Below the pieces are notes generated by a model. It was given only the letters and a program-made list of their open reading frames with translations, did not search any database and was not told the origin of the DNA. Of a DNA stretch of 46,984 nucleotides, positions 7,339 to 32,173 are shown piece by piece. The translations under genes and the position numbers were made by a program. Within the stretch, counting starts at the first letter, position 1, and each line of letters starts with the position of its first letter. Where the stretch lies: positions 1 through 46,984 of the forward strand of contig NZ_JAQKGV010000019.1 in the NCBI RefSeq assembly GCF_028617075.1, read 5' to 3'. Source of the stretch: Rubrobacter calidifluminis. GTDB taxonomy: Bacteria > Actinomycetota > Rubrobacteria > Rubrobacterales > Rubrobacteraceae.

Positions 7339-7344
7339 CAGGTG

Positions 7345-8421: not shown

Positions 8422-8433
8422 TCTCTATCTACC

Positions 8434-11246: not shown

Positions 11247-12196
11247 TAGCTGACCCGCATCTTGCTGGTAGCCAGCATGTTCGAAAAACCCACGAGCATC
11301 TTGGGAGTTGACTGCCGAGAGCGCCTTGCCCAACGCTTCTATGAGCGCCTCTTTACCGCGGGCTGCCGCTCGGCGCAGGATCGCCTTGATCTTGGCAAAA
11401 GCCTCCTCAATGGGGTTGTAGTCGGGGGAATAGGCCGGCAGATAGAGCAACTCGCAGCCCTGCTCCTCAATCAGCTCCCTGATCCTCTTTGGTCTGTGGG
11501 CTAAGAGGTTGTCCATCACCACAATCTATCCCGTACTACGCAGGCTCTGCACCAACATCTTCTCCAAGCAGGTCTCGAAAACCCTGGCGGTGGTCGCCCC
11601 TTCCACGGCCAGAGACGGTCCTATACCTTCTATGCTCATGCTGGAGAGAAGCGTCGTGTTTGGCCCGCGAGTGCGAGGGACCGACAGACGCAACCGCTCA
11701 CCTTTCAGGGCATAGCCGTAGAGTGGAGCCAGCGAAGTGTGGACCCCGCATTCATCCACGAAAACCAGCGACTCGGGCTTTACTACCGCAGCCACCATCA
11801 CCCTCCAAGCTGCCCTTTGGAACCCATCACGCTCGGTGGTGACTCCTCCCCCTTTTTCTGGTGTAACCGATGCGAGCTATGGCACGGCACATGGGGTAGA
11901 GCGACTCACCGAGAGTCCCGCGACGGCTTCGATGTACTCGCAGCGGTCCCGGAGGGTGAGGTAGGGGTGTTCTCGGAGGTTATCTTCGAGCAGCTTCTGC
12001 GCCCTCTCGTCCAGCTTCGGAGCAGATCCGGGCCTCTTCTTCGGGGCCAGGGATTCTCCCCGCTCGGCCTTTTTCACGTAGCGTTTGACGGAGGAGAGCG
12101 AGACGGAGAAGGTACGGGCCGCCTTTAAGCTTTGGACATGCCGCCTTCCACGGCGGAGACTACCCTTCGTCTAAGGTCTTCGGAGTAACCGTTCAT
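11241..12196 (-). pseudogene. IS630 transposase, broken by two frameshifts and a nonsense codon
   Basis: Reading leftward from the ATG at 12194-12196, MNGYSEDLRRRVVSAVEGGM is an IS630 helix-turn-helix N-terminus. A one-base loss near 12130 (stop within TCCAAAGCTTAAAG) moves the frame to AARTFSVSLSSVKRYVKK. A second shift near 11882-11895 leads into CRAIARIGYTRKRG. The DDE residues are visible: FVDECGVHT, then VVMDNLLAHRP, then the Glu of PDYNPIEEAFAKIK. A TAG at 11526-11528 interrupts STG-IVVMDNLL where CAG (Gln) is likely. IS630 elements sometimes use one programmed frameshift, but three lesions, including a nonsense codon, mean this copy is dead. Confidence 0.85.
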
Positions 12197-12222
12197 GCAA
12201 CCATACTCTCACCGGTTCACTA
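11247..12222 (-). mobile_element. IS630-family insertion sequence, inactivated
   Basis: The element is bounded by TA dinucleotides, as expected for IS630/Tc1-type insertion (11247-11248 and 12221-12222). Weakly matching ends read inward as TAGCTGACCCGC on one side and TAGTGAACCGGT on the other. Its length, about 976 bases, is normal. It separates a hyuB fragment on the left from a PhoD-like fragment on the right. The two flanks do not belong to one gene, so a deletion or recombination has happened since insertion. Exact ends are estimated. Confidence 0.7.
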
Positions 12223-12457
12223 TTGCTGCAACGTGCTGTAGCACTATCCTGTGCGGTGAGGGATCGCCGAAAGCCACGCTCTGCGGGAATCTATCTGGGT
12301 TGATTCCCCTGCAACGAAACAGTTCCTCGGCGAGTGCCCGATCAACGCCCATGGGCGGGCCCGCCCCCACCTAGACCGCTACCATCCCGGCGAGCGAATG
12401 CCTGAGAAACTGCGCCCGGGAGATCCCCGCTCCCTTCTCCGCACCATTCGATGCCAT
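12223..12457 (-). pseudogene. PhoD-like phosphatase N-terminal stub
   Basis: From the ATG at 12455-12457 the frame reads MASNGAEKGAGISRAQFLRH, then SLAGMVAV and a TAG stop. In the same frame it continues with RALAEELFRCRGINPDRFPQ and SVAFGDPSPHRIVL. The FP-SVA-GDP-P-HRIVL pattern matches the start of the mature domain of PhoD-type alkaline phosphatases, which normally follow a Tat signal. Coding similarity ends at the IS630 boundary, after which only NR-stop is left. It is therefore a stub with both a nonsense mutation and a truncation. The rest of the phosphatase gene is not found on the far side of the element. Family assignment rests on one short motif. Confidence 0.55.
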
Positions 12458-12537
12458 CTCCGCCTTCTCTCGATCCCGTGTACCTGTGGGAGCAGTGTAT
12501 TCACGATCCCTCCAGGGCATGTTTAAAAGAAGCGCAA

Positions 12538-12556
12538 ACCGGCGTAAATTGCCGGT
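12538..12556 (-). terminator. Weak hairpin downstream of the sulfonate-locus minus operon
   Basis: ACCGGC at 12538-12543 and GCCGGT at 12551-12556 form a 6-bp stem with a 7-base loop, 65 bases past the stop of the last gene (12621). On the minus strand the stem is followed by TTGCGCTTCTTTT, T-rich only after a gap. It is a plausible but weak transcript end. Confidence 0.35.
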
Positions 12557-12620
12557 GCAACGCAGCTCCGGCAGTACGGCGCAACCGTGGCTGGACGGGT
12601 TCTCTCTGAGAAGGATGTCT

Positions 12621-13559
12621 TTACGGTGCTTTGCCAGACCCTGCTCTCTTTACGGACGTATTTAGATGACCGGCTTCTGCGGAGATGCTGACATTCAGCA
12701 GCTTCTCGTAGAGCTTTGTGATGGCGCCGGTGTCTTCATCCCCGTAGCCGGCTGACCTGACCAGACTGTTGAGGGATCTGATGGTGTTGCCGAGGACGAG
12801 CGATCCTCCCGCTTCTTCGATCATCTTCATAGCCAGGGAGTTGTCCTTGCACAGTAACTCAACCGTGAACACGGGAGAAAAATCCCTGTCGAGGATCTTC
12901 TCACCTAGCTCGCGGAACAGGGGGCTCATGGTGGCGGCTCTGCTCTCCGATATGATCTCGTAGAGGGTGCGAGGGGAAACCCCGATCAGGGCGGCGGCCG
13001 CGAACATCTCGGCGGTGGCTACGTTGATAGCCCCGAACATCAGGCTGTTGAGCAGTTTTATGGCGTTCCCCGTTCCTGCCTCACCCACGTGGTATATGCG
13101 TGACGCGATGGTCTCGAGGACTGGCCGTGCGGCTTCAAAGGCGCTGCGTTCTCCGCCTACGGGCAGGGTCCACTCCCCGCAGGCATCCGGCCTGCCCAGC
13201 ACGGGCGCATCCAGGTAGGCGACCCCGGTCGCCGCAGCATCGGTTGCGAGACGACGGGTTGTGGCGGGATCTACCGTGGAGGTGTCGACGATCACCAAGT
13301 TCCGGGTGGGTAAAGAGAGGAGACCCGATTCACCGCCGACCGCATCAAAGACCTCCTGCGGGGAAGGCAACGACATCAGGACCACCTCTGCGGCAGCTCC
13401 GACTTCGGCGCTGGAATCCTCCGGGATCGCGCCCATTTCGACGATGCGATCGACGGCGGAGCCGGATACGTCGTAGACGGTCACCGTGTGCCCCGCCTCC
13501 AGGAGCGCGCGGACCATTCCACTCCCCATCTTCCCCAATCCGATAACCCCTACCTGCAT
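12621..13559 (-). CDS. Beta-hydroxyacid dehydrogenase (3-hydroxyisobutyrate dehydrogenase family)
   Basis: A 312-residue NAD(P)-dependent oxidoreductase. The start is taken at the ATG 13557-13559, which has GGAGG nine bases upstream. The ATG at 13566-13568 is too close to that site. The N-terminus MQVGVIGLGKMGSGMVRALL is the Rossmann GxGxMG loop. DAPVLGRPDACGEW occupies the substrate loop where typical family members have Ser-Gly-Gly. The catalytic Lys lies in GNAIKLLNSLMFG, and FTVELLCKDNSLAMKM is the usual cofactor-domain/C-domain helix. It oxidises or reduces a short 2- or 3-hydroxy acid or aldehyde acid. It is the last gene of the minus operon that begins at 21334. It is only distantly related to the YihU-like paralogue at 17580-18515, so the two probably act on different intermediates. 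Confidence 0.82.
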   Translation of the reverse strand: MQVGVIGLGKMGSGMVRALLEAGHTVTVYDVSGSAVDRIVEMGAIPEDSSAEVGAAAEVVLMSLPSPQEVFDAVGGESGLLSLPTRNLVIVDTSTVDPATTRRLATDAAATGVAYLDAPVLGRPDACGEWTLPVGGERSAFEAARPVLETIASRIYHVGEAGTGNAIKLLNSLMFGAINVATAEMFAAAALIGVSPRTLYEIISESRAATMSPLFRELGEKILDRDFSPVFTVELLCKDNSLAMKMIEEAGGSLVLGNTIRSLNSLVRSAGYGDEDTGAITKLYEKLLNVSISAEAGHLNTSVKRAGSGKAP

Positions 13560-13650
13560 CCGGGTCATCCTCCAATCTCTTGCGTTTCTTTTCCTGGACC
13601 GCCGTGGTCGTCGTTCCACAGAGCCCGGCCCTGAGCCGGTTATGCGGGTC

Positions 13651-15069
13651 TCAAGCTCGACTGCTCACGTGGACTTGTGGCTTGGAGAGTTCCGGTATGA
13701 CGAGCATTCTTGGAGCTTTGCCCACATGGCGTGTGGCGTACCTCAGGGCCTCTTCGAAAGTGCGTGTCGGTATGCAACCCACACCTCTGGCGCACTCTGG
13801 TTCCTCGGCGCCGGCTATGTAGATGGCCCGGGCACGTTCCAAGGCGATCCCTCCCATGTAGAGCATTGAGAAGGCGTGGTAGGGATGGTAGCCGTAGGCG
13901 TGCCTGAACCTGCTGATGTACTCCTCGCGCATGCAGAGATCTTCCTCGTATTTCTGCATCTCATCCACGGTCGCGCAACGCTGGAACAGTTCGTAAGTCT
14001 CCCTGTAGGAAGGGAACCACTCGTCGTTGAACCACCCGTCGCAGACCGATGCGCAGATGACCACGGGGTTGGGTATGAGCGCGTCCGCGTTGCGGACGAT
14101 CGAGGAGCCGATGGCCTGCAGCATGAGTATGGGGTTGGAACCCATACCGGGACCGTAGTGAAAGGAACGTGGCATACCCAGGACCAGGACGTCCGCCTTC
14201 TCCTTCTCTAAGGTTACCTCGGTCCTTCTCCCGGCAACCGGCCAACTGGCCTTCTCGACTTCCTCGGCCCTTCCGGCGAAAACCGCTATCTGCCGGGATC
14301 GACCGTCGAGTACGGCGTCCACCATGAAGAAGGGGGCCTTCATGTTCTCCTCAATCTTCCGGCCTATCTCGGTTAGCTGGTGCCGAAAGTGGCTCCTCGT
14401 CGATGCCGGGGTGAAGTCTTCCCGGTGCATGGTCTTAGGGGTGTGGTGGCAGCGGATCGAACGCCAGCTCGTCAGGCCTGTACAGGGCATCTTGTACCCA
14501 CCGGAATACCCGCCGTACGGGTTCCCCAGGGTGTGGCCGAGCGTGACGACGAGATCAGCCTCGAGTATCGCACGGTTGATTTCAACCACATCTCCCCGGT
14601 CCGTCTCCCCGAGTCGGACGATCTCCCGTGGGTCCTCGGGGTCGTGGTTCACCAGTTTCTCGCCCCGGAAGCGGGTGGCGATCCTGGGGCCGAGGTAAGA
14701 CTCGAACTCTTCGTAGGTGTTCTTGCGATGCAATCCGATCGCGCAGATCAGCCTGATGTCCCGTTCGTCTACACTGGCTTCAGCGAGTTCCTCCAGAATC
14801 AGCGGTATCGACACACGTCGGTGGGCGGTGGTGTGGGCACCACCCTTCACCCGATCCGGAAAGGCTATGACGACCTTCGAGCCCGGGCCCACAAGTTCCC
14901 TTATGGGTGGACATCCTAGGGGTTCCGAGAGAGCGTTGCGGGTGGCTTCCACGGGATCTTCCAGAGGTTCCGGCTCCGGGAAATCTTCACCCGGTCTTGC
15001 GATTAGTGCGTTTTCTGGGACATCGACGTCCATCCAGGAGTCCCCATACTCTAGCCTGACGCGCTTCAC
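13651..15069 (-). CDS. LarA-family nickel-pincer enzyme homologue (hydroxyacid racemase/epimerase-like)
   Basis: A 472-residue protein of the LarA (DUF2088) family, whose characterised members racemise or epimerise 2-hydroxy acids with a nickel-pincer nucleotide. The GTG start (15067-15069) overlaps the epimerase stop by four bases. An early region holds AIGLHRKNTYEEFE, where His114 fits catalytic His108 of lactate racemase. Lys193, in GGYSGGYKMPCTG, fits the cofactor-bound Lys184. His209, sixteen residues later in CHHTP, fits the nickel ligand His200. The residue ten before the lysine is Asn183, where lactate racemase has its second catalytic base His174. That is a notable change, read by hand alignment from memory. 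LarB, LarC and LarE, needed for cofactor synthesis, are not in the window. Its gene neighbours suggest a sulfonated or related hydroxy acid substrate, but this is unproven. Confidence 0.8.
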   Translation of the reverse strand: MKRVRLEYGDSWMDVDVPENALIARPGEDFPEPEPLEDPVEATRNALSEPLGCPPIRELVGPGSKVVIAFPDRVKGGAHTTAHRRVSIPLILEELAEASVDERDIRLICAIGLHRKNTYEEFESYLGPRIATRFRGEKLVNHDPEDPREIVRLGETDRGDVVEINRAILEADLVVTLGHTLGNPYGGYSGGYKMPCTGLTSWRSIRCHHTPKTMHREDFTPASTRSHFRHQLTEIGRKIEENMKAPFFMVDAVLDGRSRQIAVFAGRAEEVEKASWPVAGRRTEVTLEKEKADVLVLGMPRSFHYGPGMGSNPILMLQAIGSSIVRNADALIPNPVVICASVCDGWFNDEWFPSYRETYELFQRCATVDEMQKYEEDLCMREEYISRFRHAYGYHPYHAFSMLYMGGIALERARAIYIAGAEEPECARGVGCIPTRTFEEALRYATRHVGKAPRMLVIPELSKPQVHVSSRA

Positions 15070-16046
15070 CCCTCGTCTCCCTTCGACCCGTCCCCGGTTG
15101 TACTGTTCAGGGGTGGCAGCCCGGCCTGTGTGCGGGCGTGATCGATCAGCCTGCGCATGCCATCCTCCATCCTGAAAGCCGGGCGAAACCCGATCTCTTC
15201 CTGCAATGCTGTGTCGTCCAGCTCCCATGCCACGCCGAATTCCCCCGGCTGGTAGGTTATGCGTGCGGAAGGTATAAGCCTCTTTACATATTCGCCCGCC
15301 TCCCTGACGGACCTTCTGTCGAACTGCGTGTTGAACACCGCCCGCACGGTCCTCGGCGAGTCGACGCAGCGTACGAGCAGGTGGGCGACGTCCTCAACGT
15401 ACTGCCAGTCCACAACGTCATCGCCGAAAGGCACGTTGGCCGCTTCCCCCAGGGCGGGTTTGACGAGTTCGTTGACGAAGGCACTCGCTCCCCGGATGCG
15501 TCCAGGACCGTAAACCACCGTGAACCTCAACCCCAGCGCATCTATCCCCCAACGCCGGATGTAATCCGCTGTCAGGTGCTCGTCGAATGACTTGGTCGCT
15601 CCGTACAGGTTGGCCGGATGGTGGGGAGCGTCGTCGGGCAGCGGTCGCTCGGGGTGAAATTGCCGGCTGCCGAAGACCACCGCCGAACTGGCCCACACGA
15701 CCTTCTTCAGACCGAACAGGCGTGCTGCCTCCAAGACGTTCGTTTGTCCTTGGATGTTTACCCGGATCGCGAGCGGTGGGTTCTCGCTGCAGGCGGGGTG
15801 CAGCAGGGAGGCTAGGTGGATCACCCTTTCCACCCCATGCTTCTGGATGACGTGCGCCAGGTCCCGCAGAGAAGACACGTCTCCCCTCTCGAAAGAGATC
15901 CTGGAGATCTCCTCCGGCGTGAGCACGGTATGGATGACGTTGGACGGCAGGGGGTCCAGCGTGATGACCCTCCGGTCCGACCCGAGCAGCACCCGTGCTA
16001 CATACGCACCGATGAATCCGGCTCCGCCGGTGATCAGAACCGACAA
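15066..16046 (-). CDS. NAD-dependent epimerase/dehydratase (extended SDR)
   Basis: A 326-residue extended short-chain dehydrogenase. MSVLITGGAGFIGAYVARVL carries the TGGxGFIG nucleotide loop. ERGDVSSL, VIHLASLLHP and VWASSAVVFG follow, and the catalytic pair is in LYGATKSFDE (Tyr-x-x-x-Lys). The pattern is that of NDP-sugar epimerases, but relatives also act on small polyols and acids (for example threonine or threuronate dehydrogenase-type enzymes). It overlaps the LarA-family gene by four bases, so the two are translated together. The shared coupling suggests successive steps on one substrate, perhaps oxidation or inversion at neighbouring carbons. I cannot name the substrate. Confidence 0.82.
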   Translation of the reverse strand: MSVLITGGAGFIGAYVARVLLGSDRRVITLDPLPSNVIHTVLTPEEISRISFERGDVSSLRDLAHVIQKHGVERVIHLASLLHPACSENPPLAIRVNIQGQTNVLEAARLFGLKKVVWASSAVVFGSRQFHPERPLPDDAPHHPANLYGATKSFDEHLTADYIRRWGIDALGLRFTVVYGPGRIRGASAFVNELVKPALGEAANVPFGDDVVDWQYVEDVAHLLVRCVDSPRTVRAVFNTQFDRRSVREAGEYVKRLIPSARITYQPGEFGVAWELDDTALQEEIGFRPAFRMEDGMRRLIDHARTQAGLPPLNSTTGDGSKGDEG

Positions 16047-16086: not shown

Positions 16087-17499
16087 CTACTCGCCCGGGG
16101 TCACGGCCTCGGGCCTGCCCGGTGTGGACGTCAACCCTCCCTCCACCTCGCTCTCCTTGCCGACGGGCTCCCAGCGTATCACCAGCAGGAAGATCAGCAT
16201 GATGAGGGGGATGGCCGCCAGGTAGAGGATGGTGTGGCTCAGCCCCGCGGCTGCGAGTACGAGTGGGAACACGTAGAAGCCTAGCATACTACCTACCCTC
16301 GACATCGCCTCTGCCCATCCCGTTCCCACTCCCCGGAACTCCGTGGGATACGACATGGCGGCCATCGTCTTGCCCTGTGACCCCTGCCCGAAAGAGTGGG
16401 CGAGGATGAAGATGCCCAGAAGCAGACCCTCCAGGTACACGGAGATGGATCCACGCGTGGTCCCCGCGACGACCAAGCTTGCCGCTGCCACCGAGCAACC
16501 GATGACGGCAAGTCTCCAGACACCCAGCCTGCGGGTGAGAAACGCCTGCGTTCCACCGCCGAGGATACCGAAGAGGTTTATCACGGTCGTTCCCAGGATG
16601 GCGTAGAGCAGGCCCTTGCCCAAGATCAGAGCGGATATGGTCGGGAGGTAGAACCCCACCGCGTAATACTCCATGCTCTGTAGACCGGAGATGATCGAAG
16701 CCAGCGCTGTCCTAGCCCTGTATCCTGGCTGGAATATTGCCCCGAACCTTATGCGGCTCGGGCGCATGGACTCTTCCTCGGAGGGTTCCACCTCCACTCT
16801 GACATCGTAGTTCTTCTGGAGGATCCTGCCGGCCTCGCTCAGACCGAGATGATGTGCGGCCCACATCGGGCTCTCGTCCGCGTAGCGGAATCTCAACGCG
16901 AGGACCACCAGCGCCGGCACGGCACCGAATCCCACGGCCCAGCGCCACAGCTCGCCGCCCGCGCCGGCGAGGAACATCACAAGCGCGACCAGCCCCGTGC
17001 AGACCGTCGCGCAGTACCACATCATCTGCCAGAAGTTTACGTACTTGCCCTTGTCGCGGGAGTTGGTGAACTCAGCGACGAAGCTCAGAGACGCGGGCAT
17101 ATCGAGGCCGACCCCCACTCCGAGGCAGAACCTGAAGAAGAGCAGCCACCCCAGGTTCGGCGAGAGCGCTGCGCCCAGGGCCGCCACGACGAACAGGAAC
17201 AGGTCTATGGTGAACAGCTTGTAGCGACCTACCCTCTCGACCAGATATCCTCCGAACAGCGCGCCGATCAGCGCCCCGAACGCCATGATCGCCGTGACGG
17301 TACCCAGCTGGAAGGCGCTCAGAGAGAGCTCCTTCTGGAGTGAATCGACGCCGAACCCCAGGCTCGTGAAGTCGTAAGCGTCGATAAAAATGCCTCCCAG
17401 GGCCACGAACGCCAGTATCCGCGCCCTGCGGCTTCCGCTCGGGTGCGAGTTGACGTAGTTGATTATGTCCCGTTTGGAGCGTACGGTCAGGGTTTCCAT
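16087..17499 (-). CDS. MFS transporter, sugar-porter-like acid/sugar permease
   Basis: A 470-residue major facilitator protein with 12 predicted hydrophobic segments. The cytoplasmic N-terminus is followed by ILAFVALGGIFIDAYDFTSL, the D-x-Y-D signature seen in aromatic-acid and sugar-acid carriers. GALFGGYLVERVGRYKLFTI is the A-motif between helices 2 and 3, and FRFCLGVGVGLDMPASLSFV is helix 4/5. A central soluble loop (RYADESPMWAAHHLG to FGAIFQPGYRART) joins the two halves. It lies in the middle of the 21334-12621 operon, 40 bases before the epimerase gene. It probably brings in a second acid or polyol for the downstream epimerase, LarA-family and dehydrogenase enzymes. Direction and substrate are inference. 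Confidence 0.82.
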   Translation of the reverse strand: METLTVRSKRDIINYVNSHPSGSRRARILAFVALGGIFIDAYDFTSLGFGVDSLQKELSLSAFQLGTVTAIMAFGALIGALFGGYLVERVGRYKLFTIDLFLFVVAALGAALSPNLGWLLFFRFCLGVGVGLDMPASLSFVAEFTNSRDKGKYVNFWQMMWYCATVCTGLVALVMFLAGAGGELWRWAVGFGAVPALVVLALRFRYADESPMWAAHHLGLSEAGRILQKNYDVRVEVEPSEEESMRPSRIRFGAIFQPGYRARTALASIISGLQSMEYYAVGFYLPTISALILGKGLLYAILGTTVINLFGILGGGTQAFLTRRLGVWRLAVIGCSVAAASLVVAGTTRGSISVYLEGLLLGIFILAHSFGQGSQGKTMAAMSYPTEFRGVGTGWAEAMSRVGSMLGFYVFPLVLAAAGLSHTILYLAAIPLIMLIFLLVIRWEPVGKESEVEGGLTSTPGRPEAVTPGE

Positions 17500-17579: not shown

Positions 17580-18515
17580 TTACCCTCCTTCCTCGGTTAC
17601 ACCATCCACGCGCAACTCCACGTTCGTGCTCTGCTCCAGGAGCTTTACCAGGGCTCCCCAGTCCTCCCCGCCGAGTCCTGAGGCTTGGCCCTCCACGTAG
17701 CGCTGAAACGCCTGCCCGATGACCGGGAGCGGGACCCGACGTCGGGCGGCGGCCTCTAGGCCAATCTTCATGTCCTTGGCCTCCAGGTCTATGGAGAACC
17801 CAGGCTCGAAATCGCGCGCCACCACCCTGCGGGCGAACGTGTTGCGCAGATGGTAGCAGTCCGCCCCGGCGCTAGAGAGTGCCTTTATCAGCAGCTCGAG
17901 AGGTGCGCCGGCCCTGACTCCGAGGACCAGCCCCTCGGCGACGGCCTCGAGGATTGTGCCTGAGACCAAGTTGTTGACCATCTTTATGGTGGAGGCGACC
18001 CCGAGATCTCCGCAGAAAGTGATCTCGGAAGCCACGCACCTGAGAAGAGGCTCGACCTGCACGTATGTCTCTTCGTTCCCCGCGACCATCAGGGAGAGGG
18101 TGCCCTCCGCAGCCTCCCTTGAACTTTTGCCCATCGGGGCGTCCAGCAGACAAACCCCGTGCGCCTCCAGGTGGTCTCCGAGAGAGACCACAGCATCGGG
18201 TCCGATGGTACCCAGGTTCACCACGACGTCGCCCTGCTTGAGTGAGCCGACGAGGCCATCGTCGCCGAAGACCGCCTCGTGCGTGATCTCCGCGTCGGGC
18301 AGGATCAAGAGGAAGATCTTGCAGTCCTTCGGGAAACCGCTCGGGGATCCCACCGGACGACCTCCTGCTTTGGAGAGTAACTGCAGCCGCTCCCGCCGGA
18401 CGTCGTGACCGTACACTTGGTTGCCTTTCTTCGCGAGCCTTCCGGCTATAGGGAGTCCCATCGTGCCGAGCCCCACCACAGCCACGCAGCCCGCGTACTG
18501 CCCTCCGGTCAGCAT
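17580..18515 (-). CDS. YihU-like beta-hydroxyacid dehydrogenase, candidate sulfolactaldehyde reductase/DHPS dehydrogenase
   Basis: A 311-residue protein with the NAD(P) loop VAVVGLGTMGLPIAGRL (residues 11-27) and the catalytic Lys178 in STIKMVNNLVSG. The decisive segment is DAPMGKSS at residues 125-132. Most 3-hydroxyisobutyrate dehydrogenases have Ser-Gly-Gly here. E. coli YihU, the sulfolactaldehyde reductase, has Gly-Arg-Thr-Ser, whose Arg holds the sulfonate. Gly-Lys-Ser-Ser is a conservative match with Lys for Arg. Other YihU-like features are FSIDLEAKDMKIGLEAAA and the GGEDWGALVKLLEQ tail. It sits nine bases after the aldehyde dehydrogenase and divergent from suyAB. In this setting it would oxidise 2,3-dihydroxypropanesulfonate to sulfolactaldehyde or do the reverse. 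A non-sulfonated substrate remains possible. Confidence 0.75.
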   Translation of the reverse strand: MLTGGQYAGCVAVVGLGTMGLPIAGRLAKKGNQVYGHDVRRERLQLLSKAGGRPVGSPSGFPKDCKIFLLILPDAEITHEAVFGDDGLVGSLKQGDVVVNLGTIGPDAVVSLGDHLEAHGVCLLDAPMGKSSREAAEGTLSLMVAGNEETYVQVEPLLRCVASEITFCGDLGVASTIKMVNNLVSGTILEAVAEGLVLGVRAGAPLELLIKALSSAGADCYHLRNTFARRVVARDFEPGFSIDLEAKDMKIGLEAAARRRVPLPVIGQAFQRYVEGQASGLGGEDWGALVKLLEQSTNVELRVDGVTEEGG

Positions 18516-18524
18516 ATGTCTCTC

Positions 18525-20045
18525 CTAATCCGGATGTGGATTTCCTATGAACCGAAGATCGCGCGTAGCAATATACTGGTATTCAAGGAATTCCTCCAAT
18601 CCCTCGTGCCCTCCTTCGCGTCCGATCCCGCTGTCCTTCACCCCGCCCATCGGGACGTTGGCCGCGCTCGCGAGCCCCTCGTTGACGCCCGCTATACCGA
18701 CCTCGAGGCTCGAGGCTACACGCAGAGCTTTCGTCTCATCGTGAGAGAATACGTAGGCTGCTAGTCCGAGAGGGTTCTGTTTCAGATGACCGATGAGCTC
18801 CGACAGATCAGAGAACCCCACCACCAGCGCCAGAGGCCCGAAGATCTCGGTCCGTAGCAGGTGCTGATCTGTGTCGCGGTAATCGCGAGAGACGAGCAGC
18901 TCCGCCGGGAAAAAGCACTCTGGATAGATGCCATCCTGCCGAGATGGCATCCGCGCTGCCGCCACCCGCGCGAATCCTCTCTCGAGAGCACGGTCGCGGA
19001 TCTCTTCCACCGCCCGGCGCCGCTCTACGTTTATGAGAGGGCCAAGCGTGGTCTCTTCCCGCAGGGGGTCTCCCAGCCGCAAGTCGTTTATCCGCTCGCC
19101 AAGGCCGGAGATAAACTCCTCGTAGCATCTGTCGTGTACGTAGAAGACGTTGGCCGCGACGCAGGATTGCCCACAGTTGCGGAACTTGCTCACCATGGCC
19201 TGCTCGACGGCGAGCCCGAGATCTGCATCCTCAAGCACGATGAACGGCGCACAGCCCCCAAGCTCAAGTGCCAGACGCTTGGTAGTCGCCGCAGACCTCT
19301 CGTAGAGCTTCTTCCCTACGCTGGTGGAACCTGTGAAGCTCAGAACCCTGACCCGCGGATCCTCTAGCATAGGGCGCGTGATCTCCTCCGCCGGCCCAGT
19401 CAGCAGGTTAGCCACTCCTTCCGGAAAACCTGCTTCTTCCAAACACCCGAAGAGTTTCACGACGGAGTTAGGCGCCTCCTCGCTGGGGCGAGCAACAACG
19501 GTGCAGCCGGCCGCTAGGGCCGGGGCGATCTTGCGCGCCTGGATTGAGACGGGAAAGTTCCACGGGGTGAGGCACGCGGCCACCCCGGCCGGCTTTCGCA
19601 GTATCATCTGGGGGCCTCCATCTCGGCCTTCCACGCAGGTGAACCGCTGAAGCCGCCGGGCCTCCCCGGAAAACCATCGGAAGTAGTCGGCAGCGAAGTG
19701 CACCTCGCCCACCGCTTCTCCGAGCAACTTTCCACTCTCGAGTGCGAGTACCTCTCCTATCACCTCCGCCCGCTCGACGAGCAGCCGACTCACGCGCTCA
19801 AGAATCCGTGCACGCTCGAACGCCGGTGTCTTCCGCCAGCGGTCCAGCGCGCCGGCCGCCGCTTCCACGGCCTCTTTTGCATCCTCCTCGTCTGCCAGTG
19901 CCTGACGGGATATTACCTCTCCGGTAGCGGGATTCATCACCTCGAATGATGACGACCTCGTCCGCCATACACCCCCGATGAACATCGGGGCCGCTTCTAT
20001 GCCTCCCAGTACCGAGGTACGGCGTTCGCCTCTCTCTGAGCTCAT
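18525..20045 (-). CDS. Aldehyde dehydrogenase, candidate sulfolactaldehyde dehydrogenase
   Basis: A 506-residue ALDH-superfamily enzyme. The ATG at 20043-20045 overlaps the stop of the upstream transporter (ATGA). The order of motifs is complete: TPWNFPVSIQARKIAPALAA (160-179), the nucleotide loop FTGSTSVGKKLYE, general base Glu261 in LALELGG, nucleophile Cys295 in NCGQSCVAAN, and EIFGPLALVVGF. Arg171 occupies the place of the substrate-anchoring Arg of succinate-semialdehyde dehydrogenase, so an anionic aldehyde is likely. Residue 186, in VVARPSEE, is Arg where nearly all ALDHs have the cofactor-binding Lys. Known sulfolactaldehyde dehydrogenases are of this GabD-like type. Next to suyAB and a YihU-like gene, oxidation of sulfolactaldehyde to sulfolactate is the best guess, with succinate semialdehyde as the fallback. 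Confidence 0.82.
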   Translation of the reverse strand: MSSERGERRTSVLGGIEAAPMFIGGVWRTRSSSFEVMNPATGEVISRQALADEEDAKEAVEAAAGALDRWRKTPAFERARILERVSRLLVERAEVIGEVLALESGKLLGEAVGEVHFAADYFRWFSGEARRLQRFTCVEGRDGGPQMILRKPAGVAACLTPWNFPVSIQARKIAPALAAGCTVVARPSEEAPNSVVKLFGCLEEAGFPEGVANLLTGPAEEITRPMLEDPRVRVLSFTGSTSVGKKLYERSAATTKRLALELGGCAPFIVLEDADLGLAVEQAMVSKFRNCGQSCVAANVFYVHDRCYEEFISGLGERINDLRLGDPLREETTLGPLINVERRRAVEEIRDRALERGFARVAAARMPSRQDGIYPECFFPAELLVSRDYRDTDQHLLRTEIFGPLALVVGFSDLSELIGHLKQNPLGLAAYVFSHDETKALRVASSLEVGIAGVNEGLASAANVPMGGVKDSGIGREGGHEGLEEFLEYQYIATRDLRFIGNPHPD

Positions 20046-21334
20046 TGGTTGACCACCTCCGCTGCACGCTCGTCCTGCACCAATCTCATCTGGCGTATCG
20101 GGGTGAGGAAGAACACCACGCAGAGGATCGCACCCAGCATCGTGACCCCACAAAGCGACAGCGCCGCTGCGAACCCGAAGTACTCCGCTACCACGCCCGT
20201 GAGGGCGGGTGCGACGATCGAGGCCAGCGCTCCCGCGGTGTTCATTATCCCACCGAGCGATCCTGCCGCTCCGCCCGGCGCCAAATCCTGGGGCACCGAC
20301 CACAGGATGGCCGTGGATGCCGACTCTGCGGCCATCGCGAGGACGAGCAGCCAGGCTGCCGTCGTCGCCGAATGCGCGAACGCGGCTCCTACGACCGATA
20401 TCGCTACCAGCTGCGAAACCACGAGGATGCTCTTCTTGACCCGATTCAGGTTGTAACCCCTGCCGATGAGCCTGTCGCTGAGCATGCCTACCAGCGGCTG
20501 CGCCAACACGCCGGCTATCCAGGGCATCGTCGCGTAGAACGCTACGCTGCCCAGGTTCATGTGGCGTGCTTCGATCAGGTACCCTGGCAACCAGGTGAGA
20601 TATAGATAGTAGACGTAGTCCTGGAAGAACTTGATGAACACGATCGCCCAGGTGTTCCGGCGCTGCAGGAGCAGACGTAGCCTCACACCACCCCCCGATT
20701 TCGCCAGGACGTCTTCCCTGGTAGCAGGACGCCGTTCACGAAAGCTGAACATCCAGAGCGCTACCCACGCTAGGCTGGCCAGACCGGTCACGACGAAGGC
20801 TATATGCCAGTCCGGATCGGCCCGCGAGCCGAACCAGACCATCAGTCCTAGCATTATCCCAGGAGTCAGCGCGTACCCCAGCCGTAAACCGGAGAGGTAG
20901 ACGCCTGTCGCCGTACCACGCCGCTCTGGTCTGAAATTCTCCGTGACGACCTTAGTCGCCGCAGGGAAGTTCGCCGCTTCCCCGGCACCCACGATCAGCC
21001 TGCTGAAGAGCAGCGTGACCGGAGTCCTCGCGAAACCGGTGAGCATCGAACCTAGCGACCAGATGGCTGCTGCGGCCCCATACACTCGCTTCGCTCCCAG
21101 CCGATCGCAGAGATACCCGGCCGGAAGATTGAATAGCAGATAGGTCCAGCCAAAGGCGGAGAGTATGACGCCCATCGCAGCCTTGCTCATATGCAGATCT
21201 CCAGCGATGAAGGTGTTGGCTGTAGAGATGCTGCCCCGGTCGATCGCATTGATCAGCGTGCCTGAGAAAAGCAGAAAAATGATCCAGATCTGCCATTTCG
21301 AATGTCCGGCAAAGACCTTCCGGAAACTTCTCAA
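20042..21334 (-). CDS. MFS transporter, anion:cation symporter type, candidate sulfolactate/DHPS importer
   Basis: A 430-residue, 12-helix major facilitator of the ACS (glucarate/phthalate) group. Landmarks are LINAIDRGSISTANTFIAGD in helix 1, MGVILSAFGWTYLLFNLPAG in helix 2, GYLCDRLGAKRVYG as A-motif, and SRLIVGAGEAANFPAATKVV in helix 4 with the conserved GAGEA-xFP. The carriers of this group move small organic anions. It is the first gene of the minus operon and divergent from suyA, with 182 bases between the starts. That position suits uptake of the sulfonate that both operons consume. The aldehyde dehydrogenase start overlaps its stop. Confidence 0.85.
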   Translation of the reverse strand: MRSFRKVFAGHSKWQIWIIFLLFSGTLINAIDRGSISTANTFIAGDLHMSKAAMGVILSAFGWTYLLFNLPAGYLCDRLGAKRVYGAAAAIWSLGSMLTGFARTPVTLLFSRLIVGAGEAANFPAATKVVTENFRPERRGTATGVYLSGLRLGYALTPGIMLGLMVWFGSRADPDWHIAFVVTGLASLAWVALWMFSFRERRPATREDVLAKSGGGVRLRLLLQRRNTWAIVFIKFFQDYVYYLYLTWLPGYLIEARHMNLGSVAFYATMPWIAGVLAQPLVGMLSDRLIGRGYNLNRVKKSILVVSQLVAISVVGAAFAHSATTAAWLLVLAMAAESASTAILWSVPQDLAPGGAAGSLGGIMNTAGALASIVAPALTGVVAEYFGFAAALSLCGVTMLGAILCVVFFLTPIRQMRLVQDERAAEVVNQ

Positions 21335-21516: not shown

Positions 21517-21795
21517 GTGCACAAGTTCCTGATCCACAAACGCGGGGATCACGTCGGGGTTACCATCTCGGATGTAGAAGCTGGAGAGAGGGTGATCGGG
21601 ATATTTATGGACGACGATTCAAAGATCGAAGTGGTGGCCAGGGATGACGTACCGCTCGGGCACAAGATTGCGATCTCGGATCTCGAGCCGGGAGGTACGG
21701 TGATCGAGTACGGTGTACGTATAGGCAAGGCCCCTGAGGGACTTTCAGTGGGCGATTACGTTCACACTCACAACCTTAAGAGCGCGAGGTGGTAA
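21517..21795 (+). CDS. suyA: Sulfolactate sulfo-lyase small subunit (SuyA, SAF domain)
   Basis: A 92-residue SAF-domain protein. The start is the GTG at 21517, with GAAGGAG eight bases upstream. The frame is open further back but without a good site. The product runs from [20 protein letters not shown] through [14 protein letters not shown] to [14 protein letters not shown]. The length and the end HxHNxKxxRW match SuyA, the 8-10 kDa partner of SuyB. Together they split (2R)-3-sulfolactate into pyruvate and sulfite in the cytoplasm. Split altronate dehydratases share the fold, so the assignment leans on SuyB and the two sulfolactate dehydrogenase genes that follow. It overlaps suyB by seven bases. 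Confidence 0.85.
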
Positions 21796-22952
21796 CCGTG
21801 GAAGAGCTGTTCGGCTTTCGCAGGGAAAACGGACGGGTCGGGGTGCGCAACCACGTCGTCATCCTGCCGGTCGACGATATCTCGAACGCCGCGTGTGAGG
21901 CCGTGGCAAGCCACGTGCAGGGTACCATGGCGCTGCCGCATTCGTACGGACGCCTGCAGTACGGCGAGGATCTGGAGCTTCATTTCAGGACCATGATCGG
22001 GACCGGCTCCAACCCGAACGTGGCCGCCGCGGTCGTCATAGGTATCGAAGAGAACTGGACTGCCAGGGTGGCAGAGGGCATCAGGGAGACCGGAAAACCC
22101 GTGGCCCAGTTCTCCATTGAGGGACACGGAGACTTCGAGACTGTACGCAGGGCCTCTTGGAAAGCCAGGGAGTTCGTGCAGTGGGCCTCTGAGCTCCGGC
22201 GCGAGCCGGTTGGGCTCGAAGATCTCACGGTAAGCATCAAGTGCGGAGAGTCAGACACCACGACCGGACTCGCCTCGTGCCCCACCGTGGGTGTAGTGGT
22301 AGACCGGCTCGTGGATGCAGGCGCGACAGTCATATTCGGTGAGACCTCGGAGCTCACGGGAGGTGAGCACCTGATCGCCGAGCGGATGGCCACCCCAGAG
22401 CTCAAGGAGAGGTTCATGGAGACGTACGAGAGCTACGTCTCTTTCATCGAATCTCAGGGTGTGGACCTGCTGGGATCACAACCAACCCAGGGCAACATAG
22501 CCGGAGGGCTCTCGACGATCGAGGAGAAGGCTCTGGGCAACATCGAGAAGACGGGAACAAAAGAGATTATAGGTGTTCTGAAACCTGCCGAGGCACCGCA
22601 GGATGGCCCAGGGCTCTACTTCATGGACAGCTCCTCGGCTGCCGCTGAATTCGTCACGCTCATGGCCGCTGGGGGAGCAGTTGTCCATCTTTTCCCCACC
22701 GGGCAGGGTAATATAGTGGGCAACCCCATAGAGCCGGTCATAAAGATCTCCGCCAACCCCAAGACCGTAAAGAGTATGGCTGAGCACATAGACGTGGACG
22801 TGAGCGGGCTTCTGAGCCGCGAGCTCACGCTTCCTGAGGCCGGAGACCTCCTTATGGAGGATCTGGTCCGGACGGTGAACGGCAGGCTGACGTCGGCGGA
22901 GGTGTTGGGGCACAGAGAGTTCGTGATGACCAAACTATATCCTAGCGCGTAA
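21789..22952 (+). CDS. suyB: Sulfolactate sulfo-lyase large subunit (SuyB)
   Basis: A 387-residue protein of the UxaA/SuyB family, the catalytic subunit that eliminates sulfite from (2R)-sulfolactate. It matches the SuyB pattern I know in many places: [150 protein letters not shown] and the end [14 protein letters not shown]. Cysteines in KCGESD and ASCPT fit the family's metal site. The size equals the 42-kDa SuyB of the characterised enzyme. Either the GTG at 21789 or the one at 21798 is the start; the latter has GAGGTGG just upstream. Confidence 0.87.
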
Positions 22953-22968: not shown

Positions 22969-23694
22969 ATGTTCAAACCCGTCTCGGACAGTCGGGCGTA
23001 CAGCGAAAAGATCGTCTCACAGATCACCGATGCCATTGTCAAAGGAGACCTTAAACCCGGTGACAGGATGCCGACCGAGCGGGACCTCGCGGAGCAGTTC
23101 GGCGTCAGCCGCACCGTAGTCAGAGATGCGGTGAAGACGCTCGCTGGGCGCGGCATCCTGCGGGTTAAGCAGGGAGCAGGGATCTTCGTCGCCACACCGG
23201 AGGAGGCCATGCCGGGAGCCCTGAGCGCCCTATCCAGGATGATCCTCGTGGGAGGCCCTGCCCTCAGGGATCACTTCGAGGTCCGTAAAATCCTGGAGAC
23301 ACAGGCCGCTGAGTGGGCTGCAGAGAGAGCGAAGGACCACCATTTGGAGCGCCTGCAGCAGATCCTCAACGACGCCTTCAGGTACGAAAACGATCCGGAA
23401 GTGTTGAGCGAGCGTGACGCCAGGTTCCACACCGGGCTCGCCGAAGCCTCCGGGAACCTCGTGCTCGTTCGTGTTATGCTGGTTCTGCTCGACCTCCTAT
23501 CCGCCAGCCGACGCGAGACACTGAGTATACCCGGGAGGGCCCGCCAGTCTCTGGAGGACCACGTACGCATCTTGGAGCAGGTAAAGGCCCGGAATCCCGC
23601 CGGGGCCCGTCAGGCCATGCTCGACCACCTCGAGTCGGTCGAGACCTCACTGGCCAGGATTCATCCCGAGCTCGGGATCGGGGTTCCGGCGTGA
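22969..23694 (+). CDS. GntR/FadR-type regulator with FCD domain
   Basis: A 241-residue transcription factor with ATG start and AAGGAG ten bases upstream. Residues 10-75 form a winged helix-turn-helix: KPGDRMPTERDLAEQFGVSR then TVVRDAVKTLAGRGILRVKQ and GAGIFV. The C-terminal two-thirds is an all-helical FCD ligand domain with the usual metal residues: Asp and His in RDARFHTGLAEASGN, His in EDHVRILEQ and His in MLDHLES. Members are usually repressors released by the acid their operon degrades. Its place between suyB and slcC suggests autoregulation and control of the divergent transporter operon by sulfolactate or sulfopyruvate. The effector is inferred. Confidence 0.88.
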   Translation: MFKPVSDSRAYSEKIVSQITDAIVKGDLKPGDRMPTERDLAEQFGVSRTVVRDAVKTLAGRGILRVKQGAGIFVATPEEAMPGALSALSRMILVGGPALRDHFEVRKILETQAAEWAAERAKDHHLERLQQILNDAFRYENDPEVLSERDARFHTGLAEASGNLVLVRVMLVLLDLLSASRRETLSIPGRARQSLEDHVRILEQVKARNPAGARQAMLDHLESVETSLARIHPELGIGVPA

Positions 23695-23755: not shown

Positions 23756-24706
23756 GTGAGCAAGATCGTCGTAACCGAGCTCATGTGGCCCCGGGGGCTG
23801 GAGGAGCTACGCTCCTGCGGCAGCGTGGTCTATGACCCCGAGATGTGGACGAAACCAGAAGAGCTTGTTGCGGAGGTGACCTCTGCCGATGCCCTGATCG
23901 TCCGCAACGCGACCAGAGTCGATGCTTCTCTGCTCGAAGCCGGTCGAAAGCTCAGGGTGGTGGGCCGACTGGGTGTCGGTCTGGACAACATAGACCTTGC
24001 AGCGGCGAGAAGGCGGAGGTTGCCCGTGGTCTACGCGAGAAACGCCAACGCCACCTCCGTGGCCGAGTACGTAATGGCTGCTTTGCTGGAGGGTTCGCGG
24101 AAACTCTACGAAGCTAGTGCGAGCGTACGAAGAGGAGACTGGAACCGCAAGCAATTCACGGGGGCGGAACTCTACGGCAAGACCCTGGGGTTGATCGGAC
24201 TGGGCGAGACCGCCCGGCGGGTCGCCAAGCGAGCGAGGGCGTTCGAGATGGGGGTCCTGGGTTACGACCCCTACGTTGCTCCCTACGACTACCCGGTGAT
24301 GGAGGGAGGAATCGAAATGGTGGAACTCGCGGACCTTCTCCGGCGCGCAGACTTCGTGAGCCTGCACGTACCCCTGACCAGTGAGACCCGACACATGATT
24401 TCCAGGGATTCTTTTAAGATGATGAGGCACGATGCCTGGATCATAAACGCCTCTCGTGGCGGAGTCTTGGACGAGATGGCGCTGGCGGCAGCTCTGAACG
24501 AGGGACTCATCGCCGGAGCCGTGCTTGACGTGCTGGAAGAAGAGCCACCCCCCCCCGACAACCCCCTCCTGAAGCAGGACCGAGTAATACTCACGCCACA
24601 TGTTGCGGGCCTCACCGAGGAATCTCAGGAACGTATCTCTCTCCTGATTGCACGCGAAGTTATCAGGGTGCTGAAGGGGGGACATTCCCTGTGCCTGGCA
24701 ACTTGA
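23756..24706 (+). CDS. slcC: (S)-sulfolactate dehydrogenase-like D-2-hydroxyacid dehydrogenase (SlcC)
   Basis: A 316-residue NAD-dependent D-isomer 2-hydroxyacid dehydrogenase of the phosphoglycerate dehydrogenase type, lacking the C-terminal regulatory domains of SerA. Visible motifs are VVGRLGVGLDNIDLAAARRR, NATSVAEYVMAALL, the Rossmann loop LGLIGLGETARRVAKRA, INASRGGVLDEMALAAAL with the substrate Arg, the Glu in DVLEEEPPPPDNPL and the His in LTPHVAGLT. SlcC of Chromohalobacter, which oxidises (S)-sulfolactate to sulfopyruvate, belongs to this family. Together with comC it forms the two-dehydrogenase racemase that supplies the (R)-isomer to SuyAB. The GTG start has only a weak ribosome-binding site. 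A generic hydroxyacid dehydrogenase role is possible, but the gene context is strong. Confidence 0.82.
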   Translation: MSKIVVTELMWPRGLEELRSCGSVVYDPEMWTKPEELVAEVTSADALIVRNATRVDASLLEAGRKLRVVGRLGVGLDNIDLAAARRRRLPVVYARNANATSVAEYVMAALLEGSRKLYEASASVRRGDWNRKQFTGAELYGKTLGLIGLGETARRVAKRARAFEMGVLGYDPYVAPYDYPVMEGGIEMVELADLLRRADFVSLHVPLTSETRHMISRDSFKMMRHDAWIINASRGGVLDEMALAAALNEGLIAGAVLDVLEEEPPPPDNPLLKQDRVILTPHVAGLTEESQERISLLIAREVIRVLKGGHSLCLAT

Positions 24707-25755
24707 AAGACCGAAGAGGGGCCGGCCGCCACCCGGCCGAGGCGTTGACTTGCTTTTGCAGAGACGTTCTGACGAGCCTCGGCGTGCCCGACGAAGATGC
24801 CGCTGTGGTAGCCGACTCGCTCGTGCGCGCCAATCTGGAAGGCAAGGATAGTCACGGCATAAGCCGGCTTCCGATCTACGCCAAACGCATACGGGAATGT
24901 AGAATCTCCGCCCGGCCGGACATCTGCATAGATCGAGACGGGGCGGTGCTGAAAGTAGATGGCGGTAACGGGCTGGGGCAGGTGGTTTCGTACAAGGCAC
25001 TCCAGGCTGCTTTTCCGGTAGCAAGAGAAACCGGGATAGCAGCGGTGGCGGTGAGAAACAGCAACCACTTCGGGGCCGCATCCTACTACTGCCAGATGGC
25101 GTGCCGGGAGGGCATGGCTCTCATCGCTACCACCAATTCACCCCCGGGCATAGCTCCCTGGGGCGGCAAGAGAGCCTACCTGGGGACCAATCCCGTAGCC
25201 TTTGGCTTTCCTACCCGGCGGGAACCGCCGGTCATCGTGGACATGTCCTCTAGCATCGTAGCCCGCGGCAAGATCATCTTGGCCGCAGCGGAGGGTCGTG
25301 AGATACCCCAGGATTGGGCGATTGACGAAGAGGGGTTGCCCACCACCGATGCGGAAGCCGCACTCAGAGGGGCTGTACTTCCACTCGGCGGTCCCAAAGG
25401 CTACGCCTTGGCCGTCGCTGTTGAGATGCTCTCGGGTGTGCTCTCCGGAGCTGCTTTCGGTCCTCACGTCAACAACCTGTACAAGGATGGCGATCCGCCG
25501 GCCAACGTCGGGCACAGCTTCATCCTGATCGATGTGGAGCATCTTATGCCTCTGGAGGAGTACTACGCTAGGCTTGAGCGGTTCATTAGAGAGATGAAGT
25601 CGCATCCGAAAGCCAGAGGGACAGAAGAGATCCTATACCCTGGTGAGCGCAGCTATCGCACCTATATGAACAGACTCCGGGAAGGCGTTACGCTGAACCC
25701 GAGCCTGAAGAGTATGCTGAATGATATCGGTCGTGCCTGTGGGGTGAACCTCTGA
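24691..25755 (+). CDS. comC: (R)-sulfolactate dehydrogenase-like Ldh_2-family oxidoreductase (ComC)
   Basis: A 354-residue member of the malate/L-sulfolactate dehydrogenase (Ldh_2) family, whose fold is unrelated to ordinary lactate dehydrogenase. Signatures are DSHGISRLPIYAKRI near residue 55, VAVRNSNHFGAASYYCQMAC near 115 with the active-site His, GTNPVAFGFPTR, MSSSIVARGKI and PLGGPKGYALAVAVEMLSG. The GTG start overlaps the end of slcC by 16 bases and has a GGGGG-rich site. ComC reduces sulfopyruvate to (R)-sulfolactate, completing inversion of the (S)-isomer. The gene order suyA-suyB-regulator-slcC-comC makes this the likeliest role. Malate, ureidoglycolate and other 2-hydroxy acids are used by relatives. 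Confidence 0.82.
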   Translation: MPGNLKDRRGAGRHPAEALTCFCRDVLTSLGVPDEDAAVVADSLVRANLEGKDSHGISRLPIYAKRIRECRISARPDICIDRDGAVLKVDGGNGLGQVVSYKALQAAFPVARETGIAAVAVRNSNHFGAASYYCQMACREGMALIATTNSPPGIAPWGGKRAYLGTNPVAFGFPTRREPPVIVDMSSSIVARGKIILAAAEGREIPQDWAIDEEGLPTTDAEAALRGAVLPLGGPKGYALAVAVEMLSGVLSGAAFGPHVNNLYKDGDPPANVGHSFILIDVEHLMPLEEYYARLERFIREMKSHPKARGTEEILYPGERSYRTYMNRLREGVTLNPSLKSMLNDIGRACGVNL

Positions 25756-25950: not shown

Positions 25951-27303
25951 CTATTCTTCTGCAGAGGCCATCATTGTGTGGCGAACCCTATCCTCCTCCG
26001 CTTCTGCGATATCGTTCCTGAACGTCTCCGTGGCCAGATAGGTACACGCGAAGGATAGCAGAGATATAGCGGCCAGAAACGCGGCGACGAGCCAGGGTTT
26101 TCCTCCTCCAGCCGCAAGCAGGGAGGTGGCGATCAGCGGCGTCACCCCTCCGACTATTGACGAAAGCTGGTAGGCAATGGAAACCCCGCTGTAGCGCACC
26201 TGTGTGCCGAACAATTCGGTGAAGAAGACCGACTGTACGGCAAATACTAGGGTAGGGCCAAAAATGTAACCTGCGATGATGGCCAGCCATATCAAGGCTA
26301 GCACCCTGGTGTCCAACAACAGGAAGAAAGGGAAAGCGAAGAGCACGAGGAATCCAGTGCCCGCCATGTAGACGGGGCGGCGTCCGACGCGGTCGGAGAT
26401 CGCCCCAAAGAGCGGGCAGACGAGCACGCCGATAGCAGAGGCGATCAGGATGCCGCTCAATCCCGTACTCTTCGAGAGCCCCAGTTGGGTGGTCAGATAG
26501 GCGATCCCGAAGGCGTTTATGATGTTAGAGGAGACAGTTTCGGCGAGACGCGCCCCGAGGGTCAGGAATATATTCTTCGGGTAAGATCTCAACAACTCGA
26601 AGAGCGGGATTCTGGCTTCGTTTCCCTCTTTCTTCATCCGGGTAAACGCCGGGGTTTCCGCGATGCGCACGCGTATGTACAGTCCCACACCCAGCAGCAG
26701 GACGCTGATCAGAAACGGCACGCGCCAGCCCCAGGACAGTAACTGGCTCTGCGGGAGCAGGGAGACGAGGGCGAAGACTCCGGTCGCGAGCAAAATCCCC
26801 GCCGAGGCCGCCGATTGGGGCACCCCGGCCCAAAAACCTCGCTGGTTCCTCGGAGAGTGCTCGATGGTCATCAGGGCCGCTCCGCCGTACTCGCCCCCTA
26901 GACCAATGCCCTGCAACAGGCGCAGGACGACGAGGAGGATGGGCGCCCAGATTCCGATGGATTGGTAGGTGGGGAGAAGGCCGATCAGAAACGTGCCGCC
27001 GCCCATAATGAGTATGCTGAGGATCAGCATGGCTTTGCGCCCCAGCCTGTCGCCATAGTGGCCGAAGATCGCCCCGCCCACAGGCCGCATCACAAAGCCG
27101 ACCCCGAAGGTCGCGAAAGCGGCTATGGTCCCCACGGTTGGATCGAAGTTAGGGAAAAACAGCTCGTTAAAAACAAGGGCCGACGCCGTTCCGTACAGGA
27201 AAAAATCGTACCATTCCATAAGGGCTCCGGCGAAACTCGCCGTTGCCACCTTTCTCATGGAAACCCTCTCCCCTCTCTGCTTACCACCCAACCTATCCAT
27301 CAC
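25951..27303 (-). CDS. MFS transporter, metabolite:H+ symporter (ProP/ShiA-like)
   Basis: A 450-residue, 12-helix carrier of the MHS group. It has FAGALMEWYDFFLYGTASAL in helix 1, FGVGFVMRPVGGAIFGHYGD and RLGRKAML as the A-motif, LQGIGLGGEYGGAALMTIEH in helix 4/5, and RGFWAGVPQSAASAGILLAT. These match citrate, alpha-ketoglutarate, shikimate and proline/betaine porters. A GTG (27303) and an ATG (27300) both follow GGAGG. It is the last gene of the minus operon, facing comC tail to tail across 195 bases. It may export or import an organic acid tied to the operon's alcohol dehydrogenase. The substrate is unknown. Confidence 0.85.
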   Translation of the reverse strand: MMDRLGGKQRGERVSMRKVATASFAGALMEWYDFFLYGTASALVFNELFFPNFDPTVGTIAAFATFGVGFVMRPVGGAIFGHYGDRLGRKAMLILSILIMGGGTFLIGLLPTYQSIGIWAPILLVVLRLLQGIGLGGEYGGAALMTIEHSPRNQRGFWAGVPQSAASAGILLATGVFALVSLLPQSQLLSWGWRVPFLISVLLLGVGLYIRVRIAETPAFTRMKKEGNEARIPLFELLRSYPKNIFLTLGARLAETVSSNIINAFGIAYLTTQLGLSKSTGLSGILIASAIGVLVCPLFGAISDRVGRRPVYMAGTGFLVLFAFPFFLLLDTRVLALIWLAIIAGYIFGPTLVFAVQSVFFTELFGTQVRYSGVSIAYQLSSIVGGVTPLIATSLLAAGGGKPWLVAAFLAAISLLSFACTYLATETFRNDIAEAEEDRVRHTMMASAEE

Positions 27304-27364
27304 ATTTCACCTCCTTAGGCAACCGACAAAGAGTGCATATGCCGAAGAGCGCACCAGCCCCCGA

Positions 27365-28396: not shown

Positions 28397-28397
28397 C

Positions 28398-29888: not shown

Positions 29889-29896
29889 GCTTATCC

Positions 29897-32154: not shown

Positions 32155-32173
32155 AGTCCCTCCCCTGGAACGG

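Follow-up and report, generated by a model that had tools for sequence, protein, structure and literature searches.

The window analyzed here, the whole 46,984-base contig of Rubrobacter calidifluminis, encodes a gene cluster that very probably turns small sulfonated acids into pyruvate and sulfite and that perhaps is also fed by sulfur-containing sugars. Here, we propose that two adjacent minus-strand genes encode the entry enzymes: a beta-hydroxyacid dehydrogenase of the 3-hydroxyisobutyrate dehydrogenase (HIBADH) family (311 amino acids; 17580–18515), hereafter called the reductase, and an aldehyde dehydrogenase (ALDH; 506 amino acids, ATG start; 18525–20045). The pathway would lead from 2,3-dihydroxypropanesulfonate (DHPS) through sulfolactaldehyde (SLA) and sulfolactate to pyruvate and sulfite, and we regard this assignment as reasonably likely. 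After import of the substrate by major facilitator superfamily (MFS) proteins, one of which is HpsU-like, the reductase would oxidize DHPS with NAD(P)+ to SLA, or catalyze the reverse reaction, and the ALDH would convert SLA to (S)-sulfolactate through Cys295. An SlcC-like and a ComC-like dehydrogenase would then turn (S)-sulfolactate into (R)-sulfolactate via sulfopyruvate, and SuyAB would cleave the latter into pyruvate and sulfite. An adjoining isomerase–kinase–aldolase cassette could provide additional SLA. Each substrate and the direction of each step are deduced from the gene content, gene order, family relations, and pocket residues described below.

The genes in question form two divergent groups. 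On the minus strand lie an MFS transporter gene (16087–17499), the reductase and ALDH genes, separated by 9 bases, and a second MFS transporter gene (20042–21334), which overlaps the start of the ALDH gene by 4 bases; its product is of the D-galactonate or anion–cation symporter type and is a candidate importer. The plus strand carries, in this order, suyA, suyB, gntR, and the slcC-like and comC-like genes. The small subunit of the (R)-sulfolactate sulfo-lyase, SuyA (21517–21795), begins with a GTG codon at 21517 and overlaps by 7 bases the gene of the catalytic subunit, SuyB (21789–22952); its homologs are found directly upstream of SuyB in the compared loci. SuyB shares 62–68% identity with annotated suyAB loci, and the next class reaches at most 41%. 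Likewise, 13 SuyB matches in plasmid records fall at 60–80% and the remainder at ≤41%; the former group includes Paracoccus and Cupriavidus pinatubonensis, whose suyAB sits in an hpsN–hpsO–MFS cluster. Identity increases up to 84% in a metagenome-assembled genome (MAG) of Bacillaceae among the GTDB genomes, and up to 86% in Rubrobacteraceae (87% over a partial copy). Four Cys residues conserved in the UxaA/GarD sugar-acid dehydratases are absent from SuyB (Watanabe et al., PMC6336799). This set was also absent from the SuyB of the window, which contains three Cys residues in total, with Cys152 common to all SuyBs compared. On the identity pattern and the lacking cysteines, the idea that suyAB encodes a sugar-acid dehydratase was rejected, and the window SuyB is a genuine one, with sulfite release from (R)-sulfolactate as its predicted reaction.

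Downstream of a FadR-type GntR regulator (22969–23694, plus strand), a kind of gene that also adjoins suyAB in loci L023, L118–L120, and L122, the operon continues with a 2-hydroxyacid dehydrogenase resembling the (S)-sulfolactate dehydrogenase SlcC (23756–24706, plus strand), positioned as in suyAB operons, and an Ldh2-family dehydrogenase resembling the (R)-sulfolactate dehydrogenase ComC (24691–25755, plus strand). The order suyA–suyB followed by SlcC- and ComC-like genes is common in many suyAB loci. The best-scoring NCBIfam model for the ComC-like protein was L-sulfolactate dehydrogenase (NF040650; 289.8 bits, below the 500-bit cut-off). This racemizing pair matters because the SLA dehydrogenase GabD yields (S)-sulfolactate and SuyAB accepts the (R)-isomer (PMC11382572, PMC12421959, PMC10507020); the presence of SlcC and ComC would thus fit the stereochemistry of the pathway.

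An earlier note on this DNA had taken Arg171 of the ALDH as a pointer to SLA. The residue is present, within the sequence SIQARK, together with Trp162-Asn-Phe164, Glu261, Arg289, and Cys295, and the same residues with the same numbering were proposed for the SLA dehydrogenase RlGabD (PMC10599462). The succinate semialdehyde dehydrogenases (SSADHs) of Escherichia coli and human carry the equivalent set, too; with an Arg171 equivalent in every SSADH compared, the residue does not separate the two activities and was rejected as a marker of SLA dehydrogenase. Phylogeny was more informative. A first ALDH tree was set aside, as nearly all of its rows came from suyAB loci, and it was rebuilt with the addition of ten close background ALDHs of Actinomycetota. 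In the rebuilt tree, the window ALDH forms a clade with homologs from L118, L089, L023, and L178 that is distinct from SSADH and has 100% support in the Shimodaira–Hasegawa-like approximate likelihood ratio test (SH-aLRT). In L118 (Rubrobacteraceae), MFS and ALDH genes are divergent to suyAB–slcC–comC–gntR, and the MFS protein directly beside ALDH and suyAB is 64% identical to that encoded at 16087–17499. This arrangement, divergent to suyAB–slcC–comC, was recorded for the relative G330 with an ALDH of 67% and an MFS protein of 64% identity. L089 (Thermogemmatispora) has the order suyAB–ALDH–slcC–comC. L178 is the only clade member from a genome without an SuyB hit (G103). In a cluster of that genome (L194, 3–11655), the ALDH with the SIQARK signature is accompanied by genes for a TauE-like protein, transporters, a YihT-like aldolase, an SftI-like isomerase, and part of a PfkB-type kinase; these are the surroundings expected for an SLA dehydrogenase ending a pathway like the sulfo-Embden–Meyerhof–Parnas (sulfo-EMP) type. 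The clade is recognized by SIQARK, GQSC[IV], and PMG, versus AAMxTRK, GQTC, and PFG in SSADH. Because this clade is fully supported and its other members sit in suyAB or sulfoglycolysis clusters, the window ALDH is probably an SLA dehydrogenase.

The reductase carries the family domains PF03446 and PF14833, and its best match in the Protein Data Bank was the E. coli SLA reductase YihU (6sm7; phmmer E-value 1.9e-46). The alignment places residues 129–132 (GKSS) opposite Gly122-Arg123-Thr124-Ser125 of YihU, as the earlier note had stated; its remark that other family members have Ser-Gly-Gly there is right for most of them. The column of YihU Arg123 was surveyed in 66 and then 79 members of the HIBADH family, a sample weighted to Actinomycetota and plasmid-borne homologs. 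Gly occupies this column in 74 of the 79, Lys in three, and Arg in two, so the Lys of the window reductase is not just a chance finding. The three Lys-bearing proteins are the window reductase, its ortholog in the Rubrobacteraceae genome G274, and the enzyme of a suyAB operon of Rhodococcus koreensis. The suggestion that Lys in place of Arg is a recognition signature did not hold: the YihU-like enzyme of Paracoccus (L078) and an enzyme annotated as SLA reductase on a plasmid of NT-25 (L203), both likely SLA reductases, have Gly in this column, and Arg occurs in a Novosphingobium enzyme (L200) in whose vicinity no sulfonate gene was seen. Lys or Arg at this position was accordingly rejected as a sign of a sulfonate substrate. 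What these enzymes share is the loop G-x-[ST]-S combined with the equivalents of YihU Asn174 and Ser178, a set found in only five of the 79 members: YihU, the window reductase, its G274 ortholog, L078, and the NT-25 enzyme. The latter four all lie in sulfonate-type surroundings, and the combination is a better marker than column 123 alone. In the window reductase, it corresponds to G129-K-S-S132, Asn181, and Ser185, near the catalytic Lys178. In the YihU structure, the sulfonate group is reportedly held by Asn174 and Ser178 and, through its backbone amide, by Arg123, and the pocket is defined here by these contacts; as the last one is made by the backbone, Lys in place of Arg would be tolerated.

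The only ortholog of the reductase, that of G274, is 67% identical and keeps GKSS. It occurs together with an MFS gene of the 16087 type, with genes for an HpsU-like MFS protein and a TauE/SafE-like exporter nearby and suyAB on another contig. A scan of genome contigs with the reductase alone as the query gave no match. On the NT-25 plasmid, a conjugative plasmid of a rhizobial arsenite oxidizer (L203, 1–8526), genes for a sulfate exporter, TauE, and a tripartite ATP-independent periplasmic (TRAP) transporter accompany an annotated SLA 3-reductase gene and an adjacent gabD, i.e., the same enzyme pair.

Several observations weigh against the role proposed for the reductase. It is only ~30% identical to YihU and scored 195.5 bits against the SLA reductase equivalog model NF012005, whose cut-off is 348; it is not a YihU equivalog as judged from these comparisons. 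The tree groups the pair including the window reductase, the R. koreensis enzyme, and the pair including YihU (five rows), a weak grouping with an SH-aLRT of 90 and long branches; the approximately unbiased test gave p 0.041 against an exact trio with YihU that excludes its sister L078. An AlphaFold2 model of the reductase (predicted local distance difference test score 92), built from an input alignment of mostly classical beta-hydroxyacid dehydrogenases, resembled such enzymes with Z scores up to 38 and YihU with a Z score of 29.7 (root mean square deviation 4.0 over 225 residues), so that the global domain arrangement of the model is nearer to that of the classical enzymes. The G274 ortholog sits with a LarA-like gene, an epimerase, and a second HIBADH-family gene, not with ALDH and SuyAB; a HIBADH-family gene lies within the available flanks of only four of 84 SuyB loci; and L118 has no reductase gene between MFS and ALDH.

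Entry of DHPS and SLA into SuyAB is nevertheless the best reading of the cluster because it combines a genuine SuyB, a sulfonate-linked ALDH clade, a YihU-like reductase pocket, a Rhodococcus operon with equal functions, and the lack of HpsN. A search for HpsN in the 96% complete assembly found none, with a single HisD-family gene at 34%. The HpsNOP–SuyAB route of C. pinatubonensis shares SuyAB and an HpsU-like importer with the window, whereas the window assembly has no HpsN and the window cluster no HpsO. The earlier note had expected a full DHPS pathway different from the HpsOPN route. This difference stands; the pathway type is already known, since a HIBADH-family DHPS dehydrogenase, an SSADH-like SLA dehydrogenase, and SuyAB were demonstrated with recombinant enzymes in 2018 as the DhpA–SlaB–SuyAB route of Desulfovibrio sp. 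DF1 (PMC6278857). That strain has the same three enzyme types as the window and no HpsN, DhpA being likened to the reductase by its family, but it is an anaerobe, has suyAB on another contig, and follows a published scheme without an SlcC/ComC step. A further counterpart is a plasmid of R. koreensis (L023), where suyA–suyB–ALDH–MFS–HIBADH–slcC–comC form a single operon with seven functions equal to those of the window. Its ALDH and MFS proteins are each 45% identical to those encoded at 18525–20045 and 16087–17499, and its HIBADH-family enzyme shares Lys at the YihU Arg123 column. In contrast to the window, this enzyme is only 28% identical to the reductase and has GKTP without the Asn/Ser pair, all genes are in one operon, and no sugar cassette was seen. 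YihU itself shares with the reductase the family, the catalytic Lys, the G-x-[ST]-S loop, and the pocket Asn and Ser, and differs from it in Arg123, overall identity, equivalog score, and the modeled domain arrangement. The established SlcC–ComC–SuyAB pathways of Chromohalobacter salexigens, Taurinivorans muris, and Paracoccus wurundjeri have the gene set and order suyA–suyB–slcC–comC of the window but differ in the entry into sulfolactate. The route is a known one, from which the window departs in its host, in grouping the genes with the racemizing pair, in the Lys-containing loop, and in the sugar cassette.

That cassette (25951–36102, minus strand) is convergent with suyAB–slcC–comC. It comprises, in order of position, genes for the HpsU-like MFS transporter (25951–27303; 48% identity to HpsU of C. 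pinatubonensis), a zinc alcohol dehydrogenase that is weakly HpsP-like (27365–28399, start inferred), an FGGY-family sugar kinase (28398–30125, with its true start probably near 29.9 kb), a class I aldolase of the DhnA/LsrF type (29897–30808), an isomerase of the SftI (sulfoquinovose isomerase)/FucI/AraA superfamily (30796–32154), a sugar porter of the MFS (32174–33547), and a GH2 glycosidase (33619–36102). The earlier note had overlooked this sulfosugar-type cassette, potentially able to supply SLA, as well as the HpsU-like importer and the SlcC/ComC pair. The best model for the isomerase was that of SftI (NF048012), which matched over nearly the full length with 128.6 bits, below the 700-bit cut-off. 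Its one close homolog in Rubrobacteraceae (L119, 53%) stands in the order suyAB–PFKA–isomerase. The next relative, from an acidobacterial MAG (L062, 5657–13197), belongs to a row of PFKA–isomerase–ALDH–suyAB–comC–slcC that looks like a tandem sulfosugar-to-sulfite pathway. In L120, PFKA and an isomerase scoring 494.6 bits against SftI adjoin suyAB–gntR–slcC–comC, and further relatives lie beside suyAB in L056, L061, and L082. The last, from an Actinomycetes MAG (1111–13958), contains genes for the isomerase, an ATP-binding cassette transporter, GntR, a PfkB-type kinase, a YihT-like aldolase, SuyAB, SlcC, ComC, and an exporter, and would represent sulfo-EMP and SuyAB within one cluster.

The neighborhood of isomerase relatives and suyAB means that SLA may therefore come from a sulfosugar on site. 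In one form of this explanation, the cassette would make SLA intracellularly, the ALDH, SlcC/ComC, and SuyAB would mineralize it, and the reductase would serve as an overflow branch from SLA to DHPS or act on another substrate. Beyond the isomerase relatives, the sulfo-EMP-like cluster of G103, the absence of the reductase from the L118 arrangement, and the tandem sulfosugar-to-SuyAB pathway known for sulfofucose (PMC12421959) speak in its favor. Against it stand the low isomerase score and the 9-base spacing between reductase and ALDH genes, which suggests a common role. Moreover, the known kinase/aldolase sets are YihV/YihT and SqiK/SqiA (PMC9594981), and the FGGY kinase and DhnA-type aldolase of the window belong to neither the sulfo-EMP nor the EMP2 enzymes; for this reason, we treat the cassette as a lead rather than a claim, possibly a new sulfoglycolysis cassette. 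Altogether, we consider a supply of SLA by the cassette with the reductase outside the catabolic route rather unlikely. A wider proposal, doubtful but somewhat easier to accept, is that the contig encodes complete sulfosugar mineralization, in which a non-orthologous set of SftI-related isomerase, FGGY kinase, and DhnA aldolase would deliver SLA to the ALDH, SlcC/ComC, and SuyAB, and the Lys-variant YihU-like dehydrogenase would provide a second entry from DHPS. Finally, it is quite improbable that the reductase and ALDH use non-sulfonated substrates (e.g., 3-hydroxyisobutyrate/methylmalonate semialdehyde, gamma-hydroxybutyrate/succinate semialdehyde, or a sugar-acid aldehyde) and adjoin suyAB by chance: the best curated model for the ALDH is SSADH (440 bits, below cut-off), the reductase stays under every equivalog cut-off, and genome G012 has the 16087-type MFS, epimerase, and LarA genes with no SuyB hit, but the ALDH clade is repeatedly tied to suyAB or sulfoglycolysis in several Actinomycetota lineages and Chloroflexota, and the reductase has pocket residues in common with YihU.

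The remaining genes of the window provide the setting of the cluster. The region 12621–16046 (minus strand) encodes a LarA-like racemase, an NAD-dependent epimerase, and a second HIBADH-family protein, which are kept with the reductase and the 16087–17499 MFS gene in G274; their link to sulfonates is uncertain. The LarA-like nickel racemase contains Lar_N, and its best models, LarAH14/15/16, were below cut-off. The GntR regulator of the window has a homolog of 87% identity in G012. At 613–9768 and 10484–11002 (both minus strand) are genes for hydantoinase A and B subunits, two S-Me-THD family proteins, a permease of the cytosine/purine type, and part of a further hydantoinase B. A replication initiator of the RPA/Rep3 family (38883–40064, plus strand) suggests that the contig may be plasmid-borne. 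The counterpart operon of R. koreensis is likewise located on a plasmid.

DHPS and sulfolactate count among the major organic sulfur carriers, and those known DHPS degraders that reach SuyAB do so through HpsN or, in one anaerobe, through DhpA and SlaB. The signature SIQARK...GQSC...PMG marks a candidate type of SLA dehydrogenase, an enzyme not yet known for the sulfofucose pathway of P. wurundjeri (PMC12421959). The cluster also points to a candidate sulfosugar cassette. If the proposed pathway is correct, a dehydrogenase pair, a sulfolactate-racemizing pair, and SuyAB would be united on a contig that resembles a plasmid, in an actinobacterial family not usually named in this field.

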